Of a stretch of 23,526 nucleotides of DNA, positions 12,595 through 21,768 are shown one piece after another. The position numbers and the translations under genes are program-made. Position 1 is the first letter of the stretch; every line of letters begins with the position of its first letter. Below the pieces are notes generated by a model. It saw nothing but the letters and a program-made list of their open reading frames with translations. It did no database searches and was not told where the DNA came from. Origin of the DNA: a virus; IMG/VR virus record IMGVR_UViG_3300020220_002002, positions 1 to 23,526 of that record. One strand, written 5' to 3'.

Positions 12595-13377
12595 TCAGAA
12601 TTTCTCCGATTCGTAAGATTTTGTGCGATGACGGGCTGCCAACATATCTCTCAGAGCTTCTTCTCGAATACCTGCATGTGGATTAGTTTCTCCGGTTAGA
12701 GTCATAGTAACTCGTCCGCACCAGTTTCGACCATCGTGTCCGAGATGTAGTACCTCAAATGGTGGTCGCAGCTTTTCTGCGGTAGACCATTTTTGCTGGA
12801 AGAACGAGTCGCCTCCACCCGCATGTTTCCAGTTTGTCTGATGCCACGGTGCTGTACTAAGGTGCTTGTCCGAACCGTGGAATATCTGAGTGTAACCCGC
12901 CCACTCAACTTGTTGTTTGTGCAGTGGAAATTGTTTCCAATATGGTTCCTGTGGTAAATGATCAGGTACGTCATACATCATCCGGCGAAGTGGAGTGTAT
13001 AGATATCCGGGGTGCATGTGTGCCATACTAGGTTCGAGTGTACTAGGAGATACCGAACCGTCAGGATGGTGGAAGCACCAGTCAATATGGTTGGGCCAGC
13101 AAACATCAGCATCCATAATACATATCCAACCATCACGACCTACAGCATCGAATGTCTCTTCTAGTGCAAGGTATTTGTTGAAATACGCTCCGTTTAGGTA
13201 GAACGCTTTAGTATGGTGACAGTTTACTTTGTTTTTACTGCAGACGGTGTGCGTTGGTCGGTCTTTGCGAGTTGTAATAACGTGGATCTCAGAGAAGTGA
13301 TGTTTGTTGATAGGCAAAGTTCTGGAAAGGAAATCAGCATACTCTACGCACACGATAAACGCTTTTAACGGAGTCAT
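12595..13377 (-). CDS. GT-A-type glycosyltransferase
   Basis: 260 aa. A nucleotide-sugar transferase pattern is visible: an N-terminal beta-alpha unit (KAFIVCVEYADFL), the strand IHVITTR (31-37), LNGAYFNKYLALE (61-73), and the metal-binding DxD in WICIMDADVCWP (D89, D91). Further down are GGGDSFF and HLGHDG, which supply acceptor-side Asp/His residues. There is no membrane segment, so it acts in the cytoplasm. ATG 13377 follows AGGAA, with its start immediately after the radical SAM stop. It is last in a run of sugar-transfer and oxidative genes; acceptor unknown. Confidence 0.82.
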   Translation of the reverse strand: MTPLKAFIVCVEYADFLSRTLPINKHHFSEIHVITTRKDRPTHTVCSKNKVNCHHTKAFYLNGAYFNKYLALEETFDAVGRDGWICIMDADVCWPNHIDWCFHHPDGSVSPSTLEPSMAHMHPGYLYTPLRRMMYDVPDHLPQEPYWKQFPLHKQQVEWAGYTQIFHGSDKHLSTAPWHQTNWKHAGGGDSFFQQKWSTAEKLRPPFEVLHLGHDGRNWCGRVTMTLTGETNPHAGIREEALRDMLAARHRTKSYESEKF

Positions 13378-13378
13378 G

Positions 13379-14311
13379 TCAAGTTCCTAAATACTTAATG
13401 ACAGGTCGGTCGGTTGAATGAACTTCCTCTTCCGTACTCAAAATTTGCAACAGTCCATTTTTCAGGTTTGAGTGACTATACTGTTGGGTCACATGAGTCA
13501 CATTGTCGTGCTGGGCGTGAGAGCCGTGGCCTTTAAGGGGCACTAAACAGTTGTGGCAGTGTTGACGAACCTGTGGAGCAAACTCTGTCATCGACTTCTG
13601 CCACCATGCGATGCCTGAACCTTCATCTGCTACAATTGGAATGCCGGTGTCTGGGTACTCTGGATTGTGCTGATTGAGGATAGCTTGACTGCCTGCAATC
13701 TCACAGAAGAACCCACGCACCTGACCACGGAACTCACAGATCATTGCAGACCAATGTTGATTGATGTCGCACTGGCTAATCAATTCCCATCGACGTTCCT
13801 CGGGGATATCGAGATCGATCATTGAACCGTGAACCGGGGAGTGTCGGCTGTCTGTCTGATTGCCAAACGGCTTTGACTCCGGCCATGATGCCTTGAACTC
13901 ATCGTAAGCTGTCTGGTTCAAGTGACAGTTCAGGTTGCTCATGTGCGGGTTGAATGTCTCCCGCATGATGCCGCCTTTACCGCGAGGATTATTACACCAG
14001 ATACCACACTGCTGCTTCGGGAAATAGTTTTTGAGGATGGAACAGATGTCATCGAATTGCGGGTGTAATGCAGGATTGCCTCCAAAGATCCCGATCAATC
14101 CCCAGTAGCCTTTCATTGACTTCAGGGCAATCTCGAAGTTCTCTAGTGATATGAATGTGGACTTGCCACGAAACTGACTTCCTTGAGTACAGTTACTGCA
14201 AGCGAGGTCGCAGGCTCTTGTCAGGTGGATCTGCATGACACCTTCACGAAACTTTCCCGGTCGTCTCTGGTTAGGGGCAACCATTTGTTCTAAGCATTCT
14301 TGCTCGTTCAT
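13379..14311 (-). CDS. Radical SAM protein with C-terminal Cys cluster
   Basis: 310 aa. The 4Fe-4S cluster motif is C34-x3-C38-x2-C41 (CDLACSNC), preceded by the usual strand MQIHLTRA. The SAM-binding GGEP motif reads GGNP (77-80), a less common variant. Later Cys pairs (CEFRGQVRGFFCEIAG and HCHNC) resemble SPASM/twitch auxiliary-cluster ligands, so it probably binds a second cluster and acts on a peptide or sugar. ATG 14311 follows AAAGGAT; a longer reading from 14341 has less support. It overlaps the upstream glycosyltransferase by 41 bases. The surrounding enzymes suggest a tailoring step on the same target. Reaction not predictable. Confidence 0.88.
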   Translation of the reverse strand: MNEQECLEQMVAPNQRRPGKFREGVMQIHLTRACDLACSNCTQGSQFRGKSTFISLENFEIALKSMKGYWGLIGIFGGNPALHPQFDDICSILKNYFPKQQCGIWCNNPRGKGGIMRETFNPHMSNLNCHLNQTAYDEFKASWPESKPFGNQTDSRHSPVHGSMIDLDIPEERRWELISQCDINQHWSAMICEFRGQVRGFFCEIAGSQAILNQHNPEYPDTGIPIVADEGSGIAWWQKSMTEFAPQVRQHCHNCLVPLKGHGSHAQHDNVTHVTQQYSHSNLKNGLLQILSTEEEVHSTDRPVIKYLGT

Positions 14312-15350
14312 CGTATTCCATCCTTTTAGCTTCAAGAGCATCAGCTAGATAAGAAGTCACAGTATTGTAGTTGTACCTTACTGTAGTTTTACATGCAAAA
14401 TCATATTGACGTTCGTAATCGTAATTTGCTGTTGCTTCTTCGAGAACACATTGCAGTGATTTTATATTGATGTCTGGGTGAACACGAATCAGATTACTGT
14501 CAATCTCTGGCAGTACGTCATCGACTGGTAGATCCGTAATAACTCGACAGCCTACAGCAGTAGCCTCAATAATTTTTCTGAGAGCGTACCCGTAGCGACT
14601 GCTGGTACAAACCGCGACCTTAAATCGTGATAAAAATTGCAGGTACTCTGGCGTACAGCAGCCTTTACGGTGATATCCTGGGTGAGTGAGCCATGTCATG
14701 TTCAGTTTTGCTTGAAACTGTCGTATGCGCTGTCTAAGAGGATAGACTGAGGACATTGCTCCAGACATTCCTACCCCCTCTCGCTGATTGTTCCATAATG
14801 GAATATCGTCTGGATTTAGACTGTGGTAAGTCCGAATTAAATCTTGCTCTCGAACGTAAGGTGCAAGACATTTCACAATCCTCGGATGGTAGTACACGAT
14901 CCATGCGTGACAAGCCATGTCAATCGCAGCCTGACGGTGGTACAGAGGATTTTGGTGAGCATCTTTCAGAATAGTGACGTTTAGACTGTTGTGGTCTTGT
15001 AGAGCCGTAATGTTCTCAAAGCGGGCTTCTGACTCTCTGAAGTTCCCCGGCTGAACATCCCACTCGCGAATGTCCTGCACGACGACGATACCGGGGTTTG
15101 TGTGCTCAATGATCTTGCAGACATTCGTTTGCGGATAATCAAGGTTGTATCCGCAGTGTCTGTAACCTTGACATGCCAAACCGTTAGTGATTTGCCAGCC
15201 CTCATCGGTCATGTGTCGTTTCATCGACTCGACACCGAGCACGACTCTTTCGGTACTGCTGTTTGGCATGAATGCAGGTCTTGGCAATTCTTGACAAGTC
15301 TGCATCGGTTTCAGTTGGTTCAATGTCTCTTGGACCGTGCGGGGGTGCAT
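14271..15350 (-). CDS. GT-B-type glycosyltransferase
   Basis: 359 aa. The C-terminal half carries the donor-binding signature of GT1/GT4-like enzymes: a strand ending VAVCTSSRYGYALRK, then IIEATAVGCRVI with Glu at the ribose-contact position, TDLPVDDVLPE, and VHPDI. The N-terminal half contains a Rossmann-like strand (GIVVVQDIREW) and a block rich in His/Tyr. ATG 15350 follows GAGGA with a 6-base spacer. It starts 8 bases after the stop of the GT at 15359 and runs into the radical SAM gene, so all are co-translated. It may transfer a sugar to an acceptor primed by a neighbour; substrate unknown. Confidence 0.8.
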   Translation of the reverse strand: MHPRTVQETLNQLKPMQTCQELPRPAFMPNSSTERVVLGVESMKRHMTDEGWQITNGLACQGYRHCGYNLDYPQTNVCKIIEHTNPGIVVVQDIREWDVQPGNFRESEARFENITALQDHNSLNVTILKDAHQNPLYHRQAAIDMACHAWIVYYHPRIVKCLAPYVREQDLIRTYHSLNPDDIPLWNNQREGVGMSGAMSSVYPLRQRIRQFQAKLNMTWLTHPGYHRKGCCTPEYLQFLSRFKVAVCTSSRYGYALRKIIEATAVGCRVITDLPVDDVLPEIDSNLIRVHPDINIKSLQCVLEEATANYDYERQYDFACKTTVRYNYNTVTSYLADALEAKRMEYDERARMLRTNGCP

Positions 15351-15358
15351 AACTGTCC

Positions 15359-16315
15359 TCAGAGTAGGGTCAGGGCATCAAAATTCTCTCCCGGAAATGT
15401 CAGAGCCTCGGGATGTCTTCGGTTTCCCATTGAAGACTTTTCTCCTGTGTGCTGAAGCAGGCTGGGAGCGTGAACGTACTCAGTATATCCAGACTGGTTC
15501 ATAGATTCAACTACAGCCCCGTCAAGCGAGTGGTGGCCCCTCTGAGAGTCCATACGCCGAGTGATCATGTGAGGGCACGACAGCAAGGCTACGCAAGCAT
15601 CGTGAGGAAAGACTAGGCCGACAGCACCTCGGCCTAACTGGTGGCTGCGAGTATTGTCTGGAGTGGTAGCATAGGCTGCTTCAACCCAGCCTTTGCGGTC
15701 TTTCACAACCTGTTCGTTCTCCATGAACGTGAACAGATTGAAGTATGCTTTGTCTGGTTTGCTGCACTGCTCGAAGTACGCTCTTAGATTCTTGACGGCT
15801 ACGAAGTCATCCTGAAAGATTGCGTAGTATTCTGCCCACGGATCTCTGTTGTAGAGTTCCAGCAGAGTCAGGTGCCAGTGACTGAACGTGCGGATGTTGG
15901 CCCCTCTGAAGTGAACACGGTTGTAATTGCATACGTCACCGTAGTTGATCCACGGACCATCGACGAATAGTTCTGGGTCAGGGAAGCCTGCATCGACCAG
16001 ACTGTTCATTGTTGGCTGTAGGGTTGTCTCGAATCGAGACTGAACCGTAGTCACGGCATACTGCCATCGGCCCTTGACGTAAGGTACATCAGTCTGTGGG
16101 CGGTCATGTCCCTTGTTCCACTGATTTACCAGTCTGGTTAATACGTCTTCGTGTCCGGGATCGCAGAGAACCCTGCGATGACTAGACGGTGTTGGCCTGA
16201 GTCCGAAGTACAAGGACTTGGTTTGAGGTTTAGCCCATGCTTCAAACTCTTTGACTTCGCCGTCATGAACACAACCACAGACATGCCGAGATGTAGGTGC
16301 TACAACAGCAGGCAT
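15359..16315 (-). CDS. GT-A-like glycosyltransferase
   Basis: 318 aa. After a short Cys-containing N-terminus (HVCGCVHDG) there is a segment WQYAVTTVQSRFETTL (84-99) and ELFVDG (115-120), typical of a GT-A family that starts 'TTV..R...TL..L..AGF'. The catalytic acidic pair is in YYAIFQDDF (D169, D170). LGRGAVGLVFP and LDGAVVES are plausible acceptor-side loops. I start at ATG 16315, which has GGAG (16321-16325) just upstream, rather than the TTG at 16327. It is cytoplasmic. The preceding gene is a dioxygenase, so the acceptor could be a hydroxylated residue. Confidence 0.8.
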   Translation of the reverse strand: MPAVVAPTSRHVCGCVHDGEVKEFEAWAKPQTKSLYFGLRPTPSSHRRVLCDPGHEDVLTRLVNQWNKGHDRPQTDVPYVKGRWQYAVTTVQSRFETTLQPTMNSLVDAGFPDPELFVDGPWINYGDVCNYNRVHFRGANIRTFSHWHLTLLELYNRDPWAEYYAIFQDDFVAVKNLRAYFEQCSKPDKAYFNLFTFMENEQVVKDRKGWVEAAYATTPDNTRSHQLGRGAVGLVFPHDACVALLSCPHMITRRMDSQRGHHSLDGAVVESMNQSGYTEYVHAPSLLQHTGEKSSMGNRRHPEALTFPGENFDALTLL

Positions 16316-16384
16316 GTCAAACTCCAACTAAAAGAAACAAGTTTTTGCAGTGTATCAATAAAAACAGGTAGTGTTCAAAGGCAG

Positions 16385-16957
16385 CTACGCTTCAAATCTA
16401 GCGGCAGTGGCTCCTTCAAAACCACACGATTCTGTCCACGCAAACAAGGCTAATGTTCTCCGCATAGGGGCTGTCTCTGCTGTCTTCTGCACATAGTGCC
16501 ATGTATTAGGTGTTTGAAATACAACAGCCATATTGGCTTCTGGAGTAATCAAAATGTCCGGTTCTAACACCAGTGAACCGCCGTCCTCTTTTTGGAAATT
16601 GTCTAAAAACAATATAATGGAGTGCGTGCGGACCCAAGGCCGAAGGGGGTGTTTCTCAGCATCTTGGTGCCTGCCAAGAAAACCGCCTGGAGGTATCTGG
16701 TGCAAACCCGCAGCGTGCAGGTCGTAGTCAATAAAAGAATCTTCTACCATGTCGGCCACGCTTATTGCAAGCAGGCGTATTGCTTCTCGGCAAGCCTCTG
16801 GTAAAAGGCTAACGTGCAGGAGACCGTATTTGTCTGCGGTAAATCCTTTGTATCGATGCCAACCATTCCAATCCACGCTAGGCCATGATGCGGACACTGA
16901 TCGCAAAACGGCTGCTGGCAGTACATTGTACAATAGTTTAACCTGCGTGGTATTCAT
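16385..16957 (-). CDS. Prolyl-4-hydroxylase-like 2OG-Fe(II) dioxygenase
   Basis: 190 aa. The iron triad is visible: H97-x-D99 (GRHQDAE) and the distal H154 (TWHYV); R167 in MRRTLALF is the expected 2-oxoglutarate anchor. The double-stranded beta-helix strands SIILFLD, GGSLVLEPD and MAVVFQ lie between. It uses O2 and 2-oxoglutarate to hydroxylate a substrate. The layout (compact, LHQIPPGGFLGRHQD) is of the P4H type, which favours a protein side chain over a DNA base, though phage relatives on nucleic acids exist. ATG 16957 has an A-rich leader without a clear ribosome binding site. It is flanked on both sides by glycosyltransferase-like genes. Confidence 0.88.
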   Translation of the reverse strand: MNTTQVKLLYNVLPAAVLRSVSASWPSVDWNGWHRYKGFTADKYGLLHVSLLPEACREAIRLLAISVADMVEDSFIDYDLHAAGLHQIPPGGFLGRHQDAEKHPLRPWVRTHSIILFLDNFQKEDGGSLVLEPDILITPEANMAVVFQTPNTWHYVQKTAETAPMRRTLALFAWTESCGFEGATAARFEA

Positions 16958-16975
16958 TGTTTTTTATTTCGTGTT

Positions 16976-18010
16976 TTATATGTTTATCTTCAACTCGGCC
17001 TGTACCGCACTATCCCAGTACGACTTCAGGTATAAGTCGCCAGCGTTGTCGTGAAATAAACAAGATACTTGTTCTGCCGGAAACATCAATCCTGGCCATG
17101 ATTCTACAGCAAAGAAAAACATATCCATTTTTTGCCAGTTACGTTCAAACACATCGGCGTTTCTAAACCAGTAGAACGCTCCAGAATAGTGCCACCTGTG
17201 ATTTCCCGGAGTCTTGAAACTCCCGAATCGGCGGAAAGGCCCAGTCATAGCCGCTGTTTTTAGGTGCAGCACAACTCGATCTACATCGTCTAGGCAAGAT
17301 CGATACATGGTTTCTGTCCAGTCTTGAATCGTTGACCCTTTATCCCCAAAAGCTCCTCCGTGACGAGCACCTTTGCCGTGGCAAAAAAACGTAATACTAT
17401 CTTTGTCGTTTTGAACGGACGACAGTAACTTTTGAAAGGTCGCCCCTTCGCGAATGCGGGGGTTGTTCGGCACTGAAAAAACCTTTGGGTTTAACTCTGC
17501 TGCATACTCTGCGACCTCCGAGGCCGAGGCTGTGCCCGGACCTTCGGCAACACCTATGACAACTTGGCCCGTGAAGACATGTTTGCGACTAAGAATTTGG
17601 TCAAGATTCCACTGCCAGGCTCCATTGCCTGTTGGCCATAAGTGCATCAACAAGTTTCTGCGAGTGTCGTTGGATATGGGTCTTGGTGCTAAGAACGGTA
17701 TAACTTTTCGGAAGTTTATTTCATTAAGCCACTGCTTACGTTTTTCGCACGGAATGCAGGGCTTGACCAGCCCCGCTGTAGCGATTTTAATTCCGGCAGC
17801 TACGATATCCCCAAGACCTGTTTTTTTAACGCCTGACGATTGATTCTGCATGTGGGCTACAAGGTCTTCGATTGTTCGGTCTGGAAATATACTTTTCAAA
17901 TATGCCAGCCGTTTTTCAGGAAGCATGTCAATAGGATGCCCATTTTCGTCAGAGCCTTCACAAATGTATCGAAGTCGTCCTTTCAAATTATTGCAAGACA
18001 CTGGTTTCAC
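16976..18010 (-). CDS. Glycosyltransferase-like protein with N-terminal Cys module
   Basis: 344 aa, GTG start at 18010 with GGAG eight bases upstream. Residues 1-100 form a separate module: C6 and C17 (VSCNNLKGRLRYICEG), a linker, then GLGDIVAAGIKI and KPCIPCEKRKQWLN, a CxxC-x2-R-x3-LN element I recall from phage and planctomycete proteins. The rest (about 100-344) has alternating strands and helices (QVVIGVAEG, SITFFCHGKG, VVLHLKT, SGAFYWFRN) and looks like a nucleotide-sugar transferase, but I see no clear DxD, so catalytic class is unproven. The Cys module may tether it to a partner or bind metal. It follows the Cys-rich structural gene directly (5-base gap). Confidence 0.6.
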   Translation of the reverse strand: MKPVSCNNLKGRLRYICEGSDENGHPIDMLPEKRLAYLKSIFPDRTIEDLVAHMQNQSSGVKKTGLGDIVAAGIKIATAGLVKPCIPCEKRKQWLNEINFRKVIPFLAPRPISNDTRRNLLMHLWPTGNGAWQWNLDQILSRKHVFTGQVVIGVAEGPGTASASEVAEYAAELNPKVFSVPNNPRIREGATFQKLLSSVQNDKDSITFFCHGKGARHGGAFGDKGSTIQDWTETMYRSCLDDVDRVVLHLKTAAMTGPFRRFGSFKTPGNHRWHYSGAFYWFRNADVFERNWQKMDMFFFAVESWPGLMFPAEQVSCLFHDNAGDLYLKSYWDSAVQAELKINI

Positions 18011-18014
18011 GATA

Positions 18015-19940
18015 TTACTCCGTAATCACCCAGTGGAAAAAAGACGCTGCAAAAGAAGGGTTGCAGCATGTGTTAGACGACACGGATCGAGTCTCCCACA
18101 AGAAAGGGATGCAGTTAAACGCTGGATCTGATACAGGCACCTGCGGAACCCACACATGATCTATATTTCCATTAAAACCCCACTGCAGTTTCCAAACAGG
18201 AGAGCCTATTAAATCGTCACAGCCGAGTCTCATATTAACACTGCATGTGCCGCACCCTTCAGAAAATCCAAATACTGCCTCGCCTAACCATGCTTCTTCC
18301 TGAGCATCGTAGATAAGGACAATTACCACGTCATTAGCACAAGGGCAGTCGTTGTCTTCATACGCTGTTGCATACAGTATTCTTGGCACGGGTTGGGAAC
18401 AACACGCAACTGTTACTGCACCATAAGGATCTTCTTCTGTTTGTTCGTCGCAGCCAGTACATTTTTCAGGGTATACAATAACTTTGTATATGTAGTGGTG
18501 CGGTGGTTGTGACGCTACAGCAAATTCGCAACCAGTGAATACATGCTCTGGCCATATCTCACTAATAGACCATTCATCTCTACGACCTTTGAATGTATTC
18601 GTAGTTGTTTCGATGTGCAGCTTTGGAAGACAATCGCTAGTTAGCGTTTGAACTAATGCCGCTGTGTTTATGCGTTCAGAATATAGTGTTATCTTTTTTG
18701 TATAGTCTATTGGGTTTGAGCCTACCCAACCTTGAAACTCTCCAACAATTAACTCTAAAACTCCTGTACCAAAATCACTATCAGTGTTTTGGCAAAACTC
18801 AGTCTCGACAATGCCTGATAACTTTATTTGAAACGGGTTGCAACTTAAAATTTTAGCATCACTGATTCGGTACACGTTAGAGTAAATGTTGGCTTCATTA
18901 AATGGTATCAGATAGTCTGTGTTATTCGCCGCGACAGACGCAGTATAATTGACAATTTCAAAGCAAGCCTGCCATGTTCCAGTTGTAACGTCGCACCACA
19001 GTACAAGTCGAGCGTACACTTCAATAGTGTACGGGGTCTCTATTTGAAACGGGGATGGACACAGTGACGCTAAAGAGTCAGCCAAGACTCCTTCAGATAA
19101 CCAAATGTCAGACCCTTCTGGTATGTTTGGGTATCCAGATACAAACGGGTCGGAGGCATACGCCAACTTGTGCTGTAGATGCAAGAGCGAGCCGGGGTCA
19201 GTGATCTCGTTTCCAGCCTGCGACTCTGTGTAGTATTGAGTCCCTGTTCTCTTTGGTGCAATACAAGTGCATCCGTCTGAAAAATTTACAATCCGTGCAA
19301 TCAATACACTTGGCATAGTATTGGCATTGCAACAGCACTCAGGGTCTACTAACACCGTGTCGTTTATGTACCACTCAAGAGTAGTGCGTTTGGCTACTCC
19401 AGGGTCATCTAAAGTGAATACCTCAGCACACAATCGTTGCGGCAGGCATCGCCCTCCTGTACAGTCGTCTGGACCGCTATTTATACATTTTTGCTGACCA
19501 AGACTTACCATGTTGTATTTGCGAACAGATACTACATCTCCATTGCCTAAATCAAATTCCCAATAAGGGCATCTTGCATTGATGTCGTCTGTAAATGCGT
19601 GCGATACTTCAAGATCCAATTGGTCGCTTCGTAAAACCGCAGATGGCGTACCGGATACCAACTCATATGTGAGGTACAAATCGATTAGGTAACTACCGCA
19701 CAGGAACGACAGGTCAAACGCTTGTATATTGCAGTTGTATGATACAGCCCCAAAGTATTGAGACGCTCCTAACAAAGTTGCTTCGTACCCGCAAGATGGC
19801 ATGTTTAGCGACACACACAAAAAGGGAAACAAACATTTTGTAGCTTCGTTGCAATCTGTGGTGATTTCGCAAGTGGTGCATTTTGTGCCCCCGCCTTTAG
19901 CCGTGCGAATAGGCTTCCGAAAAAACGGGTCATCTGCCAT
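18015..19940 (-). CDS. Cys-rich phage structural protein with repeated modules
   Basis: 641 aa with about 37 cysteines, beta-rich, no membrane segment. Two similar blocks can be seen: one around ECCCNANTMPSVLIA ... SDGCTC and one around ACCSQPVPRILYA ... DNDCPC. CxPF elements (PSPFQIETP, CNPFQIKLSG, CIPFLWETR) recur, and the chain ends FFHWVITE. This suggests tandem small beta domains, perhaps disulfide- or metal-stabilised, as in a tail fibre or adhesin. ATG 19940 overlaps the upstream stop (TGATG) with GAGGCG before it. Position after the tail genes and before the sugar-modifying cassette makes it a candidate receptor-binding protein and modification target. Role inferred. Confidence 0.65.
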   Translation of the reverse strand: MADDPFFRKPIRTAKGGGTKCTTCEITTDCNEATKCLFPFLCVSLNMPSCGYEATLLGASQYFGAVSYNCNIQAFDLSFLCGSYLIDLYLTYELVSGTPSAVLRSDQLDLEVSHAFTDDINARCPYWEFDLGNGDVVSVRKYNMVSLGQQKCINSGPDDCTGGRCLPQRLCAEVFTLDDPGVAKRTTLEWYINDTVLVDPECCCNANTMPSVLIARIVNFSDGCTCIAPKRTGTQYYTESQAGNEITDPGSLLHLQHKLAYASDPFVSGYPNIPEGSDIWLSEGVLADSLASLCPSPFQIETPYTIEVYARLVLWCDVTTGTWQACFEIVNYTASVAANNTDYLIPFNEANIYSNVYRISDAKILSCNPFQIKLSGIVETEFCQNTDSDFGTGVLELIVGEFQGWVGSNPIDYTKKITLYSERINTAALVQTLTSDCLPKLHIETTTNTFKGRRDEWSISEIWPEHVFTGCEFAVASQPPHHYIYKVIVYPEKCTGCDEQTEEDPYGAVTVACCSQPVPRILYATAYEDNDCPCANDVVIVLIYDAQEEAWLGEAVFGFSEGCGTCSVNMRLGCDDLIGSPVWKLQWGFNGNIDHVWVPQVPVSDPAFNCIPFLWETRSVSSNTCCNPSFAASFFHWVITE

Positions 19941-20650
19941 CAGAACGCCTCGCATTCCGTTTGCTGTTCCGCCAACGACGTGACTTCAAAACCCGTCCAC
20001 GGTTGGTACGGATATTTAGGGCGACCTGTTAAATACGTTGCGTACCCAATTCGATCCTGCAAGTTGATATTACTTTCGTTCAAAAAACATCCAGTTTTAT
20101 CATACACTACTACAAATTTTGACGGCACATCTTGCCCCTGCTCGTCCTGCTCAATTTCACCGTATATTTCATATGATCCTGGCACGCTACCATTATTTGA
20201 CAGCACTCGAACGATTGCTGATCGACCTTCGCAATCAGATTCAAAAATTTCAAATCGAATAATAGGTGTTGACGTGCCGCCACTTGAGTGCAAAGGAATG
20301 TATTCGCTACCTGCACGTTTTACCCAGATGTAGTCGCCAGTATTTGCACTGAATGACGTAGAGCGATTGGTGATCTTCTCCCTGTTCTCTGCAGTATCGG
20401 GAGCTACTTCACGATCCAGTGTATCCTCAGCAGGGATCTTGTACCGGACGATCAAACCATCAGCTTGAGTGTACCCAGTCTCAGGATTAGTAGCTGCAGG
20501 AAGATCAGCCAGCATCTTCACATAGTACATATCAGCGGACGTTGTATAACGTCGCTGTATGTTTTCTGGGGAAGAGGTAGATTGCTGGCCGAGCACTTTA
20601 CGGTGTATCTCGCGAGCATCTTCAGGACTAAATACACCAAAACTGGTCAT
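19940..20650 (-). CDS. Tail-region structural protein (236 aa)
   Basis: It opens FSPEDAREIHRKVLG, a helical start I associate with phage structural genes in planctomycete-like genomes, then is beta-rich with charged loops. There are no catalytic motifs, signal peptide or membrane segment. It is joined to both neighbours: ATGA overlap with the gene upstream (20647-20650) and TGATG with the Cys-rich gene downstream. Probably a minor tail or baseplate component; exact role unknown. Confidence 0.6.
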   Translation of the reverse strand: MTSFGVFSPEDAREIHRKVLGQQSTSSPENIQRRYTTSADMYYVKMLADLPAATNPETGYTQADGLIVRYKIPAEDTLDREVAPDTAENREKITNRSTSFSANTGDYIWVKRAGSEYIPLHSSGGTSTPIIRFEIFESDCEGRSAIVRVLSNNGSVPGSYEIYGEIEQDEQGQDVPSKFVVVYDKTGCFLNESNINLQDRIGYATYLTGRPKYPYQPWTGFEVTSLAEQQTECEAF

Positions 20651-21768
20651 GGTATTTCCAGATTATTGTCTGCTACAAAGGTATGCAGGTCAGCCTCAAC
20701 AGGCAACTCAGGATCGATGTAGGCAAAGGCTGTTTGTGGGTCTGCGGTCTGAAGGTCTGCGAATGGGAAACCCTGACCTAACGGAGTCAACGGCCACGGC
20801 TCTTGAGCAAAGTCTCCCCTGCCGTTGATTGGAATTGGCAGTAGAGGGTTCAGCAGTACAGGGGGTGTATTCGGAGCGAGCAACCCGAGGGTATGCTTAG
20901 AAACTCTTCGATGAGCATCTCGAAAGTATCCTTGGTCTCCCTCAAATGTAGGACGACGATCAATCACGAATACGGCAGTTAAAGTAACAAAGTGGTGCTC
21001 TGCATTTGTTCCTGCTACGGATTGTCCGGCAGGAGTTCCAATGTTTACAGGTCTTCTGTTTTCTACAACACTGATACGCTCACACATGACATGCTTGATA
21101 TTAGCATTTTTGAAACTGTCAATTTGTTGCGAGTTAATCTTGCCAATGTACTGACTGATATCTTCGTAGTCGAACTCAGCGTATTGTTTATTCCAAGTAA
21201 AGGTATGTACTTCCAGTTCCAAAGGTATCTCAATACCCTCGGTGATAGGTAGGCCGTTTGGATGTAACAGTACACCACCGTTTGCATCATGATACTTTGT
21301 AACAGTAACAGTTCGAGTGTCAGCACTCCATACTACAGGCTCATCCCAAGGAAAGACAATGACTTGTTTTTCTTCGGGAGTGCCGCCTGTACCAGTTTCA
21401 TACACTTTGTCTCTAGTGCCTGCATTACCTCTTCCCCGGTCTTCTCCGGGAAACATGTCACGCATCCATTGGCCAGTCTCGTAAGTGACTGCAACACGCC
21501 AGAACGGCCTGCCAGCATTCTGATCTTCCTTGATGCCACTGCATTCTTTCAGCAGCAGGTCTGGCCTGCCAGGATAGTGACTGAGACCAATAGTGAACGT
21601 AGGTTCTGCTTGCTGATTGAATGACGGCAAGTAGTATTGTACGTCTGTAGAATCTTCGAGAGGGCTGGTCATGCGAACCAACCACTCGACATTCAAAGTC
21701 ACAGTACCCCACGATGCAGACAGCACTTCTGTATCGAGAGGTACGCCGATAATTTCTTCGAGAGCCAT
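20647..21768 (-). CDS. Tail-region structural protein (373 aa)
   Basis: Directly downstream of the tape measure gene in transcription order (TAATG overlap at 21766-21770), where siphoviruses carry distal tail or hub proteins. It is beta-rich (TVTLNVEWLVRM; FWRVAVTYETG; EIPLELEVHTFTW), with a Pro-rich C-terminal region (LLAPNTPPVLLNPLLPIPING). I recognise no named domain; the tail assignment is from order and composition. It ends with an ATGA overlap onto the 236-aa gene. Confidence 0.6.
   Translation of the reverse strand: MALEEIIGVPLDTEVLSASWGTVTLNVEWLVRMTSPLEDSTDVQYYLPSFNQQAEPTFTIGLSHYPGRPDLLLKECSGIKEDQNAGRPFWRVAVTYETGQWMRDMFPGEDRGRGNAGTRDKVYETGTGGTPEEKQVIVFPWDEPVVWSADTRTVTVTKYHDANGGVLLHPNGLPITEGIEIPLELEVHTFTWNKQYAEFDYEDISQYIGKINSQQIDSFKNANIKHVMCERISVVENRRPVNIGTPAGQSVAGTNAEHHFVTLTAVFVIDRRPTFEGDQGYFRDAHRRVSKHTLGLLAPNTPPVLLNPLLPIPINGRGDFAQEPWPLTPLGQGFPFADLQTADPQTAFAYIDPELPVEADLHTFVADNNLEIP

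Follow-up and report, generated by a model that had tools for sequence, protein, structure and literature searches.

Do the six adjacent ORFs found between positions 12595 and 18010 of a 23.5-kb uncultured virus record (the window: the whole stretch of DNA analysed) form one pathway, and what would this pathway decorate? A first-pass annotation had proposed a six-gene set. The six ORFs are present at the positions and with the motifs that it listed, all on the minus strand. They are named here by their lowest coordinate (Table 1) and are transcribed in the order 16976, 16385, 15359, 14271, 13379, 12595. The genes lie close together, separated by 18, 57, 8 and 1 nt, with one overlap of 71 nt between the GT-B gene (14271) and the radical-SAM gene (13379), or 41 nt if the latter starts at Met11, the start favoured by its homologues. 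The ORFs point away from tail genes (tape-measure-like 21768, 20647, 19940 and 18015) and toward replication genes, and the described position between these two groups is borne out. The names of the tail genes (including tape-measure and adhesin) rest on order and composition, not on a family match. Only one of the six proteins, the dioxygenase 16385, exceeds a curated Pfam cut-off.

Table 1. Features of the locus, with the basis of each assignment (GT, glycosyltransferase).
Coordinates	Strand	Feature	Basis
12595..13377	-	GT-A fold glycosyltransferase ('GT12595'), core, DAD motif	AF2 model, Foldseek GT-A, Glyco_tranf_2_4 in homologues, co-occurrence
13379..14341 (probable start 14311, Met11)	-	Radical-SAM enzyme, Twitch-like, core	CxxxCxxC and four invariant Cys, PF04055, Foldseek SpeY/BtrN
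14271..15350	-	GT-B-like glycosyltransferase ('GTB'), core	Weak Glyco_trans_1_2, conserved motif
15359..16327	-	GT-A-like glycosyltransferase ('DD'), core, invariant QDD	Alignment, weak MGAT4_cons, fusion variants
16385..16957	-	2OG-Fe(II) dioxygenase, P4H-like, window-specific cargo	PF13640
16976..18010	-	Putative glycosyltransferase, HxKG motif, N-terminal GLGD...CxxC segment, variable cargo	No Pfam/PDB match
18015..19955	-	Cys-rich protein (37 Cys/646 aa), likely tail-tip/adhesin, candidate acceptor	Order and composition
19940..20650	-	Tail-tip protein, conserved N-terminus (~129 aa), exchangeable C-terminus, candidate acceptor	Comparison with relatives
20647..21768	-	Conserved tail gene, distal-tail-like, upstream	Conserved in the window's lineage

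A four-gene cassette and its variable cargo

The conserved cassette consists of four genes: GT-A 'DD' 15359, GT-B 14271, radical SAM 13379 and GT-A 12595. They are kept in this order in the relatives of the window; exchange affects 16976, the dioxygenase, the Cys-rich gene and the C-terminal part of 19940. Co-occurrence was analysed with a search seeded by the GT-B alignment alone, which retrieved 24 viral contigs whose genes were mapped by HMM. The radical-SAM gene was found in 23 of the 24 contigs and GT12595 in 22 (one of the two contigs without a detected copy is truncated). Fifteen of the 24 lack any of the window backbone genes tested (20647, 9720, polymerase). DD was mapped in 23 contigs, a count that is inflated because the DD profile also contains a small CxC module (the 'DD' match of L074 is this module). 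Conversely, a radical-SAM gene lies in range in 29 of 41 GT12595 contigs, and the viral radical-SAM sequences form about 30 clusters at 90% identity. The contigs are fragments whose flanks end at 8-10 kb, and the scans were based on peptide patterns, by which divergent relatives are missed. The cassette is mobile between unrelated phages, in which it lies directly behind tail-type genes and in the same direction. The GT genes are both embedded among virion structural genes and conserved together, the features by which a phage virion glycosylation cassette is recognized. The radical-SAM enzyme is dispensable, since the GTs persist without it in one contig from the window's own lineage (L070/L109). 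No useful cultured-phage relative of radical SAM, 12595, 14271, 16385 or 16976 was found.

The other two genes do not co-occur widely with these four, and the six-gene unit was rejected since the co-occurrence data split off 16385 and 16976. Protein 16385 matches PF13640 above the cut-off (3.3e-10) and carries the residues of a 2OG-Fe(II) dioxygenase (H97-Q-D99, H154, R166/R167). The first-pass annotation had called for a search for the six-gene set in other phages: a PF13640 dioxygenase was found in only 2 of 22 records, the window and a near-identical sister contig. The dioxygenase is a passenger outside the conserved set. Protein 16976, which contains a C85-x2-C88 motif, had been described as glycosyltransferase-like; it matches no Pfam family and no PDB entry. 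Its homologues adjoin Cys-rich proteins in marine phages. The Cys-rich protein of the window (18015) has no detected homology to other Cys-rich proteins beyond that of the sister contig, and in relatives its slot is filled by unrelated Cys-rich proteins, often also by a TG-repeat tail protein. The C-terminus of the window adhesin (19940) is related to the adhesin of another contig, L029 (E 5e-10), in which a 16976-like gene lies two genes downstream, behind L029's own Cys-rich protein. Genes 16385 and 16976 are cargo of this variable adhesin region.

Core glycosyltransferases and the radical-SAM enzyme

The assignment of 12595 to GT-A (motif D89-A-D91) relies on an AF2 model (pLDDT 83.6), whose Foldseek matches to GT-A enzymes include K4CP, SpsA and SunS, and on Glyco_tranf_2_4, which is weak on the window protein and was found in 14 of 14 homologues (best 3e-5). 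The assignment of 14271 and 15359 leans on weak matches and conserved motifs, because their GT matches are all sub-threshold: Glyco_trans_1_2 in four of seven members of the 14271 family, which shares the motif RKIIEA...GC.VITDLP, and MGAT4_cons for 15359 (motif Q172-D-D174). PDB profile searches with 15359, 14271, 16976 and the dioxygenase gave no significant match.

The DD protein of relatives often has a fused CxC module, which is lacking in the window copy. This module (about 60 residues; GLGDxVxxAL..GITEERV..WLGxPCxCxERxEKLN) is encoded by a separate ORF of 76-94 aa, or fused to the N-terminus of DD, or, in two cases, to its C-terminus. These fusions connect the module with the GTs; that it serves in docking would be a guess. 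It has no PHROG match, and neither the one classic copy tested nor a related ORF in L079 has a cultured-phage match. The similarity of the N-terminal GLGD...CxxC segment of 16976 to this module is suggestive (HMM E 0.19; 3 of 1297 scored shuffles reach the score); on these values, its identification as the same module was dropped.

Protein 13379 belongs to an unnamed radical-SAM family whose C-terminal cysteines, judged from the alignment, follow the four-Cys order of a Twitch domain. PF04055 matches the window protein at 1.8e-6, 0.8 bits under the cut-off, and was detected in 15 of 15 homologues (best 8.5e-7); the cysteines of the C44-x3-C48-x2-C51 motif are invariant in 37 of 37 representatives, which together place the family in the radical SAM superfamily. 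Four further cysteines (C191-x21-C213-x48-C262-x2-C265) are invariant in all 31 sequences that cover the C-terminus, bacterial ones included; C202 is a Cys in just 15 of these 31. In the model, strands 199-204 and 207-211 lie between the first two of these cysteines, and helix 251-264 lies at the third. This spacing agrees with the Twitch layout of BtrN, in which a beta-hairpin has one Cys on either side and a helix is followed by two more (PMC6231123). BtrN is a Twitch radical-SAM enzyme that oxidises an aminocyclitol (PMC9012708, PMC6231123); SpeY oxidises a hydroxyl on an aminoglycoside ring. Below E 1e-3, the PDB matches of Foldseek were confined to five entries, four of SpeY and one of BtrN (E 5.6e-5 to 6.4e-4, TM 0.40-0.50). 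The model is moderate (pLDDT 71, cluster loop poorly modelled), so that the structural evidence for a Twitch domain is support, not proof. Sequence profiles of the family do not reach SpeY or BtrN, no NCBIfam model claims the protein, and weak matches to the maturases HxsC and SbtM were obtained.

Homologues outside viruses are rare (2 of 385 genomes of the class searched, 4 of 149 of the family searched). Three radical-SAM sequences gave no match on genome contigs; an alignment of 15 sequences gave five loci (L045-L049). The homologue adjoins a GT25 gene in an alphaproteobacterial MAG (L045) and two GT2 genes in Beijerinckia (L047); another is from Methylosinus (L046). In Pelagibacteraceae (L049), it belongs to a surface-glycan-like locus with RmlA/RmlB-like (named by eye), GT61 and GT2 genes. 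The fifth locus (L048) is a phage-like contig binned in a Balneolaceae MAG, where the gene lies behind GT2 and SDR epimerase genes and ahead of terminase/portal/capsid-like genes (structural names by eye). Two more homologues (L059, L060) are also flanked by GT2 genes. In phages, the slot adjoining the radical-SAM gene encodes a Methyltransf_24 protein or a PAPS_reduct protein, or is empty. In one phage contig (G012), the cassette belongs to a more extensive group of GT-like genes that follows the tail genes directly, in a locus that also has a cytidylyltransferase-like gene.

Proposed pathway and competing explanations

The reading that we consider reasonably probable is that of a mobile phage glycan-assembly cassette, whose Twitch radical-SAM enzyme would edit a sugar and whose target would be tail-tip proteins. 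The three GTs (15359, 14271, 12595) would put together a short glycan, and the radical-SAM enzyme would take a hydrogen off a sugar carbon, with its auxiliary Fe-S cluster allowing the sugar to be oxidised (or epimerised). In other phages, the methyltransferase or PAPS-reductase-like product of the neighbouring slot would add a further change. In this phage, exchange of the adhesin block would have brought the putative extra glycosyltransferase 16976 and the dioxygenase 16385; both may have a role in priming or trimming the adhesin of this phage only. The parts of this proposal differ in strength. That the cassette does glycan chemistry is very likely, and the radical-SAM enzyme probably acts on a sugar; that it specifically oxidises a hydroxyl is possible, with the balance somewhat against it. 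One of the tail-tip/adhesin proteins encoded directly upstream would be the most likely acceptor, given that tail-type genes precede the cassette in unrelated phages; on this positional evidence a tail protein is favoured by a little over even chances, and the location next to tail genes may be a matter of operon convenience. The fullest version, in which a transferable cassette makes a tail-tip glycan with a radical-SAM-edited (oxidised or epimerised) sugar and the CxC module links the GTs to the adhesin, is tentative.

The main rival is modification of the host surface: the cassette would alter a host polysaccharide during infection, for superinfection exclusion or receptor masking. It is unlikely, although the bacterial homologues in surface-polysaccharide-like loci (L049, with rmlA/rmlB-like and GT61 genes; L045, with GT25) and the cytidylyltransferase-like and many GT-like genes of G012 speak for it: the cassette shares its direction with late tail genes and is not part of an early or lysogeny module, and where the adhesin is exchanged the first cassette protein is exchanged with it. 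It is rather improbable that 13379 is a peptide maturase that crosslinks or otherwise modifies a tail peptide (RiPP-like), with the GTs acting on the same protein. The SPASM/Twitch families count many peptide maturases among their members, the HxsC and SbtM matches point the same way, and Cys-rich proteins and the small CxC module adjoin the cassette; against this, the best structural matches of 13379 are sugar/cyclitol dehydrogenases, its bacterial homologues adjoin glycosyltransferase and sugar genes, with no small precursor peptide among the longer ORFs listed there, and the Pfam scan reported no peptide-binding RRE domain.

Hypermodification of DNA bases, with GTs decorating a hydroxylated base and radical SAM editing the sugar or the base, had been put forward as an alternative to virion decoration and is disfavoured here as quite improbable. 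Such hypermodification by phage GTs is on record (Pyle et al. 2024, as cited in PMC12619734), also with multiple GTs, and DNA-acting genes are encoded nearby in the window lineage. The base-hydroxylation enzymes were not found here: PF00303 thymidylate synthase/hydroxymethylase occurs in 0 of 21 records, many of them fragments, and PF00145 C5 DNA methylase in 1 of 22 (G020, a record without any detected core cassette gene), hence in no cassette-bearing record. By its sequence, the DNA methylase of the window (6634) is of the DPPY type, the bacterial radical-SAM homologues sit in glycan loci, and a TET/JBP search gave no match, its control being silent too. Least credible is the original scheme, in which the dioxygenase hydroxylates a virion protein, the GTs add sugars there and radical SAM finishes. 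All six genes are indeed adjacent in the window, but the dioxygenase is missing from 20 of 22 records, and about 30 viral clusters have the core genes and no detected dioxygenase of this kind. What holds of the multi-step pathway is a probable glycan synthesis beside tail genes; the logic by which a P4H hydroxyl feeds the GTs is not supported.

Relation to known systems and significance

The glycan-assembly cassette favoured here is, as had been suspected, possibly undescribed: the searched papers and family libraries yielded no description of it. To our knowledge, no earlier viral glycan needs radical-SAM chemistry, and that of the cassette would be the first, if the proposal is true. BtrN and SpeY share with 13379 the CxxxCxxC motif and a four-Cys auxiliary-cluster pattern (a four-Cys [4Fe-4S] cluster in BtrN) and genes that adjoin those of sugar-processing enzymes; they also gave the best structural matches to its moderate model. 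13379 differs by the lack of detectable sequence-profile similarity, by TM values of only 0.42-0.48, and by being phage-encoded in a GT cassette.

Chloroviruses and giant viruses (PBCV-1) also encode their own GTs for glycan pathways, in which we know of no radical-SAM enzyme; these are viruses of eukaryotes, and no sequence homology was found. The 12595 model weakly matches the PBCV-1 capsid GT 2p6w (Foldseek, rank 48). In mycobacteriophage Corndog/cluster O, GTs and an O-methyltransferase encoded in the structural operon were proposed to modify capsid/tail proteins (Freeman et al. 2023; PMC4351075, PMC12619734). GTs and a methyltransferase among virion genes are common to both systems; the cassette differs by following tail-tip genes, by moving between unrelated phages and by its radical-SAM enzyme, which the passages of these sources on the mycobacteriophage system do not mention.

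Phage glycosyltransferases are known, but the sugars that they make and their targets are mostly obscure. Compact and conserved across phages that are unrelated, with a few rare homologues in bacteria, the radical-SAM/GT cassette is a defined gene set; the 13379 family is a candidate for a new family of radical-SAM enzymes that edit sugars.

Tail-tip repeats and the small CxC module

Tail-tip proteins encoded 5′ of the cassette in six of the compared loci bear Thr-Gly repeats (TGTGTGTG), which are possible O-glycosylation sites; 19940, the tail-tip protein of the window, is devoid of them. A GLGD...CxC module of about 60 amino acids is encoded by a tiny ORF in some phages and joined in others to the N or C terminus of DD, the GT-A-like glycosyltransferase with QDD. 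This module gave no match in the PHROG search, nor, when one copy was used, in the cultured-phage search. Two DD genes, one with and one without the module, are found in tandem in locus L023 (5772-8348).

Features of the compared loci and the window
Feature	Position	Match
Thr-Gly-repeat tail-tip proteins	L003:5735-6847; L010:7761-8843; L013:5657-6754; L015:5817-6917; L023:3524-4645; L085:4027-5526	
GLGD...CxC module	L084:3753-4031; L069:6965-7192; L074:785-1066; L081/L086 and L003/L010/L013/L015 DD genes	
PAPS-reductase-like protein	L010:13300-14013; L017:10924-11919	PF01507, 7.6e-6 in L017
ParB-like 'SGQHRL' protein	window:11269-12501	phrog_5931 (7e-22), function not annotated

Radical SAM surroundings and 16976-like fusions

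The PAPS-reductase-like protein is inserted between radical SAM and the cassette gene GT12595 in two loci; the L010 copy is divided between two ORFs (HMM map). In the Balneolaceae MAG contig JAGYJQ010000016.1 (L048), radical SAM adjoins GT2 and SDR epimerase genes, with terminase/portal/capsid-like genes beyond; it looks like a phage contig placed in a MAG bin. Proteins related to 16976, the putative glycosyltransferase of the window, carry a fused C-terminal domain in L029 (7973-9919) and L005 (7362-9296), which reads by eye as a methyltransferase.

Backbone of the lineage

The ParB-like gene adjoins the cassette throughout the lineage of the window. A putative ThyX-like flavin-dependent thymidylate synthase gene, predicted from sequence in contig G005 (L034; 12888-13619), is absent from the primase-polymerase interval of the window. 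L070/L109 (3300020162_001010) has the backbone and glycosyltransferases of the lineage and, according to HMM mapping, lacks the radical SAM gene: this natural absence provides a helpful comparison case.
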